Origin: Candidatus Woesearchaeota archaeon | GTDB taxonomy: Archaea; Nanobdellota; Nanobdellia; Woesearchaeales; GW2011-AR4 | Assembly: GCA_016185755.1 (NCBI GenBank) | Contig: JACPMX010000014.1 | Location: 53,868 to 117,867, forward strand | DNA length: 64,000 nucleotides | Reading direction: 5' to 3' | Shown here: in pieces, positions 18,778 through 20,760 of the stretch | Layout: every line of letters starts with the position of its first letter | How positions within the stretch are numbered: the first letter of the stretch is position 1 | The notes under the pieces: model-generated | Databases searched by the model: none | What the model was told of the DNA's origin: nothing | The model's input: the letters and a program-made list of their open reading frames with translations, nothing else | Position numbers and translations under genes: made by a program

Positions 18778-19005
18778 TCATTGATGCTTCTCGAAGTCTT
18801 CTTCCTTTATTTTTGCAAGTTCGAGTATCCCTTTAAGCGTGCCTGTTTTGAGTTCCTCGTGGTTTGGAACAACTGTGCCTACTGCACCTTCAGGCGTTTC
18901 TTTGCGCAAAATAACATGGCTCCCTCGCTGGCGCTTTATTTTAAAACCAAACTTATTGCACAGAATTTTAACGCACTCTTTGCCTGAGATTTTCTTAAGC
19001 GGCAC
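18778..19005 (-). CDS. hicA: HicA family mRNA-interferase toxin
   Basis: ISGKECVKILCNKFGFKIKRQRGSHVILRK...VVPNHEELKTGTLKGILELA. Confidence 0.92.
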   Translation of the reverse strand: MPLKKISGKECVKILCNKFGFKIKRQRGSHVILRKETPEGAVGTVVPNHEELKTGTLKGILELAKIKEEDFEKHQ

Positions 19006-19009
19006 AATT

Positions 19010-19207
19010 TCAGGCTACCTCAAAAGTTGTAAGAATAGGGTGTTTTGATTCTTCTAATGGGAATTCTTCCAGATAAAGTTCAGTAGCTTCTTTTAGGTTA
19101 GCGATAGCTTCATCTATTGTAGACCCCTGGCTCACTGTGCCTACTTCAGAGCATCTGGCTACGTACATATTCTCCTCTTTTTGAATAACTGCTGTAAATG
19201 TTTTCAC
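19010..19207 (-). CDS. hicB: HicB family antitoxin
   Basis: FTAVIQKEENMYVARCSEVGTVSQGSTIDEAIANLKEATELYLEEF. Confidence 0.92.
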   Translation of the reverse strand: MKTFTAVIQKEENMYVARCSEVGTVSQGSTIDEAIANLKEATELYLEEFPLEESKHPILTTFEVA

Positions 19208-19251: not shown

Positions 19252-20478
19252 TTACCCCAGCCTTATTATGACGCTTCCTGCCGCGCTGCTGATTGTCAAG
19301 TTGTTTCCTGTCGTGTTCATTACTGGATTTGGGGATGCGCTTGGATCTATAGTTACTGCATCTATTGTTCCGTTTATGCTTAGTTTTTTGGTTGGAGAAG
19401 TCGTCCCGATGCCGACATTGCCGGAACTATCAACAAACAAATCGCCGCTTCTTGTTGGCTGTGATGTTACATTCAAAGTCCCCTGAACAGTCAAAGTTTG
19501 AGCTGGAGTTGTCGTGTTGATGCCGACGTTGCCTGCATTTTTTACTATGAAATATACTGTTCCAGCACTTGACTGGGCTTGTATTAAATCACCGCTCTGG
19601 CTTTGATTCACCAATAAAGCAGGAATCGTGCCTCCTATCGGAGAAACATCAAGATATCCTCCTGGTTTTTTTGTTCCGATTCCAAGCTGGCTGTTGCCCC
19701 ACAATGTGAATATCCTGGCCCCATCAATATTATTCATCGATACAATATCTGAAGCGCCGCTCCCGCCTCCTGTAATATGCAGGGTAGGCTTGTTTGTCCC
19801 ATCTCCAATTTGCCCCATTGTAGCAGATGTAGAGCCTAAAATATGAAAAGTTGCATTTGGATTGTTCAATCCTATACCCACATTATTTGTGCTTCCGTTC
19901 ACATACAAAACATTGCTTAAGTTAACGCTTCTTCCATCAGTTCCAGAAGCGACTTGCAGTAAGTAGTTTGATGAAGGAGTTCCAATTCCAACCAAGTTAT
20001 TTGTGCTGTCTGCATAAAGTAAAGTTCCAACAGTCAAATTTCCAGCAACGCTCAAATTCCTAACGAAATAGCTTGCATTCGGGTTCAATCCCTCTGAAAT
20101 GTTTGCCCTGAATGAATAAGGGGAAGATGTCAGGTTTATCCTTGGCGAGCTTTCATTGTCAGCGCTTACTGTAATCCCCAGATAATACTGGTCTGCAAAG
20201 CTCAGATTAATCCCGCTCAGAATGACGTCATAGATTCCGTTTGCGTCTGTTGTTATGTTGTAATCGGTGAGCTGCCATAAAACATTTCCATTTGTTGCAG
20301 CGTCATAAATCTTAAAGGTAAAATTAAATGTCCCCTGCTGCGAAGCGCCTGCAAGATTTGTCAATTTGCCCTGCAAGGTCAATGAGTTTGGGATAGCAAA
20401 AGCTATTGAGGAAATAATAAGCAGCGCAAACAAAAGCAATATTATGAATTCTGCTTTTTTTTTGTTTATCTTTTTCAT
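19252..20478 (-). CDS. Exported tail-fibre/adhesin-like protein with VGIGTxxP repeats
   Basis: N-terminal hydrophobic signal; repeated NVGIGTTSPTKKLSINGT / LGIGTKKPGGYLDV / VGINTTTPAQTLTVQGT motifs typical of phage tail-fibre-like proteins. Confidence 0.8.
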   Translation of the reverse strand: MKKINKKKAEFIILLLFALLIISSIAFAIPNSLTLQGKLTNLAGASQQGTFNFTFKIYDAATNGNVLWQLTDYNITTDANGIYDVILSGINLSFADQYYLGITVSADNESSPRINLTSSPYSFRANISEGLNPNASYFVRNLSVAGNLTVGTLLYADSTNNLVGIGTPSSNYLLQVASGTDGRSVNLSNVLYVNGSTNNVGIGLNNPNATFHILGSTSATMGQIGDGTNKPTLHITGGGSGASDIVSMNNIDGARIFTLWGNSQLGIGTKKPGGYLDVSPIGGTIPALLVNQSQSGDLIQAQSSAGTVYFIVKNAGNVGINTTTPAQTLTVQGTLNVTSQPTRSGDLFVDSSGNVGIGTTSPTKKLSINGTIDAVTIDPSASPNPVMNTTGNNLTISSAAGSVIIRLG

Positions 20479-20609
20479 TTTTGCTTTTTCCTCAGGTCAT
20501 TCAGCACCAGGCTCCTTATGTAATCAGACTTGTCCACGCCCATGCTTTCTGAAACTTCAACTATCAAATCATCAAGCTTCTTCGTTATGTTAAACCTTAT
20601 TTCTGGCAT
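20475..20609 (-). CDS. 44-aa ribbon-helix-helix (CopG/MetJ-like) DNA-binding protein; not in the supplied ORF track
   Basis: MPEIRFNITKKLDDLIVEVSESMGVDKSDYIRSLVLNDLRKKQK*; stop overlaps the start of 19252..20478 as ATGA. Confidence 0.85.
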   Translation of the reverse strand: MPEIRFNITKKLDDLIVEVSESMGVDKSDYIRSLVLNDLRKKQK

Positions 20610-20610
20610 T

Positions 20611-20717
20611 TTGGCTTAAAATAGTATTAAATTCGGCTTAAACTCGGATTAAATACGTATTTCATTTGATATACTTGTTTTAATTCCGTACTAAAAACGG
20701 ACTAAATTAGTAGTAAA
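20611..20717. promoter_or_regulatory. 11-bp-phased direct-repeat array upstream of the RHH gene (candidate operator)
   Basis: Units ttggcttaaaa, tagtattaaat, tcggcttaaac, tcggattaaat, (acgtatttcat) at 20611/22/33/44/55, and cttgttttaat, tccgtactaaa, aacggactaaa, ttagtagtaaa at 20674/85/96/707. Confidence 0.7.
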
Positions 20718-20760
20718 TAAGGATGTTCAATATACTAACTTATATATAAATGTTACTATT

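Follow-up and report, generated by a model that had tools for sequence, protein, structure and literature searches.

A gene for a 44-aa ribbon-helix-helix (RHH) protein in a 1.25-Mb Woesearchaeota genome is preceded by ladders of 11-bp repeats and overlaps the start of a gene for a large secreted protein, and we consider it likely that this locus is a cis-encoded autorepressor cassette in which the RHH protein would bind the ladders, repress its own promoter and thereby limit the co-translated partner. Many related archaea have the same combination of RHH gene and ladder, ahead of different genes. The locus lies in the window, i.e., the whole stretch of 64,000 nucleotides that was analysed (G000:C12:53868-117867), and those relatives carrying the RHH gene that have names are Candidatus Woesearchaeota MAGs.

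The first-pass annotation had described a 44-aa RHH open reading frame that overlaps the start of the next gene, and both parts of this description hold: the frame at 20475–20609 on the minus strand (ATG at 20609, stop at 20475) encodes exactly the sequence that had been given (MPEIRFNITKKLDDLIVEVSESMGVDKSDYIRSLVLNDLRKKQK), and it shares the ATGA at 20475–20478 with a 408-aa frame on the same strand (19252–20478). Its codons are conserved. Compared with an 86%-identical homologue, the first 40 codons contain 20 synonymous and 6 non-synonymous differences, and 21 of the 30 base changes fall in third codon positions; because synonymous and third-position changes dominate in this pair, the frame is taken as a coding gene under selection. 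An AlphaFold2 model of the monomer (mean pLDDT 89.9) has helices at residues 10–23 and 27–42 and does not assign the N-terminal strand as a strand, as expected if the strand needs a dimer partner. The first nine Foldseek matches of this model were all P22 Arc (TM-score by query 0.78–0.84), with E-values of 0.07–0.25 that are as expected at 44 residues, and CopG, ORF56 and ParG were also among the structural matches. The RHH profile likewise had Arc as its best match in the PDB (E = 0.012, ungapped over 43 residues), while Pfam RHH_3 matches the 44-mer below the cut-off only. The predicted strand and two modelled helices place the 44-mer in the ribbon-helix-helix (Arc/MetJ) superfamily.

Homologues of the RHH protein were detected in 17 of 149 relatives in a six-frame search (E ≤ 0.01), and a profile search added further ones across the order and class. 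In clade A (MPEIRF-type), the strand residues E3, R5 and N, S, T or G at position 7 alternate with hydrophobic residues; in clade B (MAQINF-type), the polar positions are Q3, N5 and S7. By analogy with Arc, these polar residues probably contact DNA, and the base-reading residues Q9, N11 and R13 of Arc align with E3, R5 and N7 of the 44-mer (Q3, N5 and S7 in clade B). Tandem duplicates of the RHH gene occur at five loci (L050, L051, L047, L048, and L089), whose products could possibly form heterodimers, and one genome (G023) has an extra three-unit array between its two tandem copies.

Upstream of the RHH gene, the recurrence of TAA(A) every 11 bp that had been noted earlier was found again on the plus strand at 20617, 20628, 20639, 20650, 20681, 20692, 20703, and 20714. 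On the minus strand, nine 11-bp units, all in the same orientation, form two ladders within the 110 bp from the TATA box to the ATG. The archaeal TATA box (TTTATATATA, 20741–20750, minus strand) lies just 5′ of the ladders and would put the start site ~25 bp further 3′, near 20718. The TSS-proximal ladder (20674–20717, minus strand) comprises the four units TTTACTACTAA, TTTAGTCCGTT, TTTAGTACGGA, and ATTAAAACAAG, and the ATG-proximal ladder (20610–20664, minus strand) the five units TGAAATACGTA, TTTAATCCGAG, TTTAAGCCGAA, TTTAATACTAT, and TTTAAGCCAAA, the last unit of which abuts the RHH ATG. The two ladders are 2 bp out of phase because a 9-bp spacer separates them (20673–20665, minus strand). 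The autocorrelation of this promoter lies well beyond chance: against dinucleotide shuffles, z is 5.2 at lag 11, 4.7 at lag 22, and 2.8 at lag 33. When 110-bp segments across the entire 64 kb were scored at these three lags, positions 20613–20722 came out on top with 8.1, followed by 4.7 for the next distinct stretch, and none of the other periods from 5 to 20 stood out there in the same 110-bp scan. An explanation of the repeats through RNA structure seems unlikely, as the units are direct repeats and the leader has no dominant inverted repeat.

The periodicity was also checked in orthologous loci, and most RHH homologues have retained it: between a TATA-like box and the start codon lies an 11-bp array of co-oriented units, the last of which often touches the ATG. 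Loss of the periodicity in such loci was an outcome that the first-pass annotation had named as refuting its idea, and the idea withstands this check. Mean autocorrelation z values at lags 11, 22, and 33 are 2.5, 1.6, and 1.4 for clade A and 3.1, 1.9, and 1.7 for clade B, and these are the only lags that stand out in either clade; a more distant RHH clade has mean values of 2.5 and 1.4 at lags 11 and 22. The combined score averages 3.1 for promoters of RHH homologues with E < 1e-8 versus 0.0 for 129 control promoters, and 18 of these 27 homologue promoters exceed the 95th percentile of the controls. In most homologous promoters there is just one ladder; the two-ladder layout of the window is shared by one relative (G013). 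Most apparent exceptions are the second gene of a tandem RHH pair, which has the coding region of the first gene upstream of it, and three homologues (L015, L106, and L072) are genuine exceptions in which a clear array is absent. Tandem sites at a fixed helical spacing are thus found where an iterated operator would have them, in the RHH gene's own promoter.

The letters of the units differ between the clades together with the strand that would read them. In clade A, with E-I-R strands, 68 units from 15 promoters have the consensus TTTARTCC, with A at position 4 in all 68 and C at position 8 in 65; in clade B, with Q-I-N strands, 38 units from 7 promoters have the consensus TTAGTA, and none of the 38 has C at position 8. 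These consensus units come from motif fits with different seeds, and unseeded motif counts agree with them: TA[AG]TCC averages 2.4 copies per promoter in clade A and is absent from all six array-bearing promoters of clade B, and TAGTA averages 0.9 per promoter in clade A versus 4.3 in clade B. A distant homologue with an EIR strand (L101, MGDEIRV) again carries TTAATCC units. The unit thus covaries with the recognition strand at the sequence level, in the direction expected if the RHH strand reads the DNA directly, although the covariation amounts to few independent events because only a few clades underlie it, and the tree of the 45-residue RHH proteins is weakly supported. Together, the conserved arrays and the tracking of the RHH strand by the unit letters largely bear out the earlier suggestion of an autoregulated operator, as far as comparison of sequences can.

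In its own genome, the RHH protein looks like a regulator of one promoter. The three-unit pattern was found there only at the RHH promoter and at C12:215977-216016, and across the genomes with the RHH gene, strong three-unit matches fall at the RHH promoter and at one separate conserved array. This second array (G000:C12:215940-216016; L043, L133) has the 11-bp unit TWATTCCCAAW with the core TCCCAA, lies directly upstream of the BRE/TATA of a gene encoding a coiled-coil and winged-helix-turn-helix (wHTH) protein, and is kept before the coiled-coil/wHTH gene in G001, G002, G005, G009, G015, G016, and G020. Since its unit is different, its position is upstream of the TATA box and it is also kept in genomes without a close RHH match, it is probably the site of another regulator. 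In one relative (G022), a second array lies towards a divergent ORF. A wider RHH regulon in the same genome was therefore set aside, the sole extra match being judged to be that site. Separately, an orphan ladder of ~7 clade-A-type 11-bp units lies at a contig end of another genome (L111, G025:C64:128-200), with no RHH gene found downstream.

The second array also turns up in genomes that gave no close match to the RHH protein, which could be taken to mean that the repeats act through a different factor or through the shape of the DNA, such as archaeal histone positioning, A/T-tract curvature or a global regulator, and that the RHH gene is merely nearby; the A/T-rich, helix-phased units would fit this as well. 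We regard this as very unlikely, as the specific core of the unit follows the recognition strand of the RHH protein, the unit of the second array is a different one (TCCCAA), and the three top-scoring promoters among the 129 controls are the second array in G000:C12 and those of two genes with an RHH array in common.

The co-transcribed partner in the window had been called tail-fibre-like, a label we abandon: the 408-aa protein has an N-terminal hydrophobic segment, an SLTLQGKLT domain and VGIGT repeats, matches no Pfam family above the cut-off, and is a secreted protein of archaeal surface type that nothing links to a phage tail fibre. No relatives were found in IMG/VR contigs, and the neighbours are archaeal surface proteins and toxin-antitoxin (TA) genes, so that a phage tail-fibre or prophage module was rejected. 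At most homologous loci, the next gene overlaps the RHH gene by ATGA, a 4-bp overlap that recurs at many of them, or has its start codon no more than ~35 bases before the stop codon of the RHH gene. The partners are usually large, with an N-terminal hydrophobic segment, and of unrelated kinds, including SLTLQGKLT/VGIGT proteins, KYADLEK proteins, and proteins with NosD/Big_5, Laminin_G_3, or Big_13-like domains. In two genomes with clade-A arrays (G516, L138:1076-3616; G393, L139:1650-4644), the partner is instead an N-6 DNA methylase (N6_Mtase), followed in G393 by a type I specificity subunit (Methylase_S). Given these unrelated surface and methylase partners, the RHH-plus-array unit is portable.

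TA genes are common around the loci. Directly 3′ of the surface gene in the window and on the same strand lie a HicA toxin (above the Pfam cut-off) and a HicB-like antitoxin (18778–19207), and in G005 (L050:4194-4850) and G013 (L045:3052-3735) a convergent DUF433/DUF5615-like TA pair, recognized by eye, lies between the RHH and surface genes. The pair in G005 is flanked on both sides by AAAAATGAGAAA and G011 is without it; it looks like an insertion at the coupling site. RHH proteins are, moreover, often antitoxins, and with HicBA and the DUF433/DUF5615-like cassettes nearby, one could suppose a TA-like pair in which the RHH protein neutralizes the downstream product as an antitoxin and also autoregulates. 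This is extremely improbable, as the bare 44-aa RHH protein ends right after helix 2 without the C-terminal tail of an antitoxin, and the genes paired with it encode large secreted proteins of unrelated kinds or DNA methylases rather than small toxins. A type II TA system was accordingly rejected for the window, where the RHH protein has no toxin-binding C-terminal region and the partner is a secreted protein of 408 aa.

The autorepressor reading can be put as follows. The first gene of the operon would supply a minimal RHH protein that presumably forms an Arc-like dimer, and such dimers would probably occupy adjacent units of the ladder, a dimer to each turn of the helix, with cooperative binding. 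As the ladder covers the predicted start site and leader, a filled ladder would block access of RNA polymerase or the initiation complex; the earlier proposal that the operator overlaps the promoter is thus sound when meant as such occlusion, but the ladders do not cover the TATA box. With the RHH protein and the surface protein on one message and an overlapping stop and start, the output of the repressor would track that of its partner, and the resulting feedback loop would cap and steady expression of the downstream gene. Across the different partners, a sensible common purpose would be restraint of whatever is costly or risky, that is, dosage limiting. Alternatively, the RHH protein might be a concentration-dependent dual regulator that activates when scarce and represses on spreading along the array, in the way that AvtR stimulates at low concentration and does so more weakly as oligomerization along the DNA grows (PMC5569661); the two ladders of the window, being out of phase with each other, would suit such a scheme. 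It is nonetheless unlikely, as the ladders occupy the position of a repressor, 3′ of the TATA box and across the predicted start site and the leader, where the homologous promoters mostly have just one ladder.

Several known systems come close to the proposed autorepressor cassette. Arc of phage P22, encoded by the first gene of its operon, represses its own promoter and limits the downstream gene (arc-ant), with half-sites spaced by a single turn of the helix, about 11 bp. It resembles the 44-mer as a minimal RHH protein and as its best profile and structural match; however, its operator is a single inverted pair of half-sites in a bacterial promoter, whereas four to nine co-oriented units lie 3′ of an archaeal TATA box here, ahead of a surface protein or methylase. 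CopG (pMV158) and ORF56 (pRN1) are RHH autorepressors of 45–56 aa whose genes each open an operon that also holds the gene to be limited, but their operators are short and inverted or pseudosymmetric and their partners are replication genes. Cooperative filling of short tandem sites is known from MetJ, omega, and ParG, which are longer proteins with other partners, and in MetJ and omega the units are spaced 7–8 bp apart rather than 11 bp. Among archaeal viruses, F55 of SSV1 binds an 11-nt motif (ATAGATAGAGT) of which there are several copies in its own promoter and in others, at sites that overlap the TSS and BRE (PMC9608457, PMC5569661). F55 is, like the 44-mer, a small archaeal RHH protein (55 aa) with repeated 11-nt sites, the comparison being at the level of the fold, but it acts as a viral lysogeny switch on several promoters with two tandem repeats per site, whereas the ladders here are longer and belong to a cellular single-promoter cassette. 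SvtR of SIRV1, also an archaeal RHH protein, represses itself and a structural gene for the virion tail fibre (PMC5569661); it would share autorepression combined with action on another gene, but is viral and uses an imperfect inverted-repeat site and a target elsewhere in the genome.

Repeats with the same spacing also occur in the promoters of two putative RHH antitoxin genes, assigned to the family by eye (L137 and L119; TTAATCCCACA TTAAT...), so that ladders with 11-bp units may be a general feature of RHH genes in these archaea. The window further contains a second arrangement of DNA-binding protein, array, and surface gene (45131–46060): the gene for a 180-aa double-HTH protein (45131–45673) lies immediately 5′ of an 8054-aa surface ORF (20970–45134), the two overlapping by TTGA, and upstream of the double-HTH gene there is a 20–22-bp array of CTTATTATATAAG-like palindromes (45895–46056), with one further copy near 45800. 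The same gene pair with a similar array is found in G017. That Woesearchaeota have a general system, in which each surface operon has a DNA-binding protein of its own, coupled to it in translation and matched by an iterated operator, and which in the window uses two unrelated folds (RHH and double-HTH), is a speculative and rather improbable extension. In such a system, swapped cassettes with diverged operator specificities would permit mutually insulated or mutually exclusive expression of alternative surface proteins.

Neither the RHH fold nor the spacing principle nor autorepression is new. In the open-access literature that was searched, we found no description of this RHH family, of long co-oriented ladders in the leader, of swapped surface and methylase partners, or of covariation between strand and operator, and searches on DPANN with RHH proteins and on Woesearchaeota adhesins returned no title or abstract describing such a cassette. 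Knowledge of how DPANN archaea regulate their genes is very scant; many of these archaea live fixed to other cells, and those considered here spend a large share of a tiny genome on surface proteins. The RHH protein and its ladder are a sequence-defined candidate pair of regulator and operator that is easily tested, and since natural variants change strand and operator letters together, the code by which a beta-sheet would read DNA is testable as well. The unit could also serve as a marker for finding controlled surface operons in uncultured genomes.
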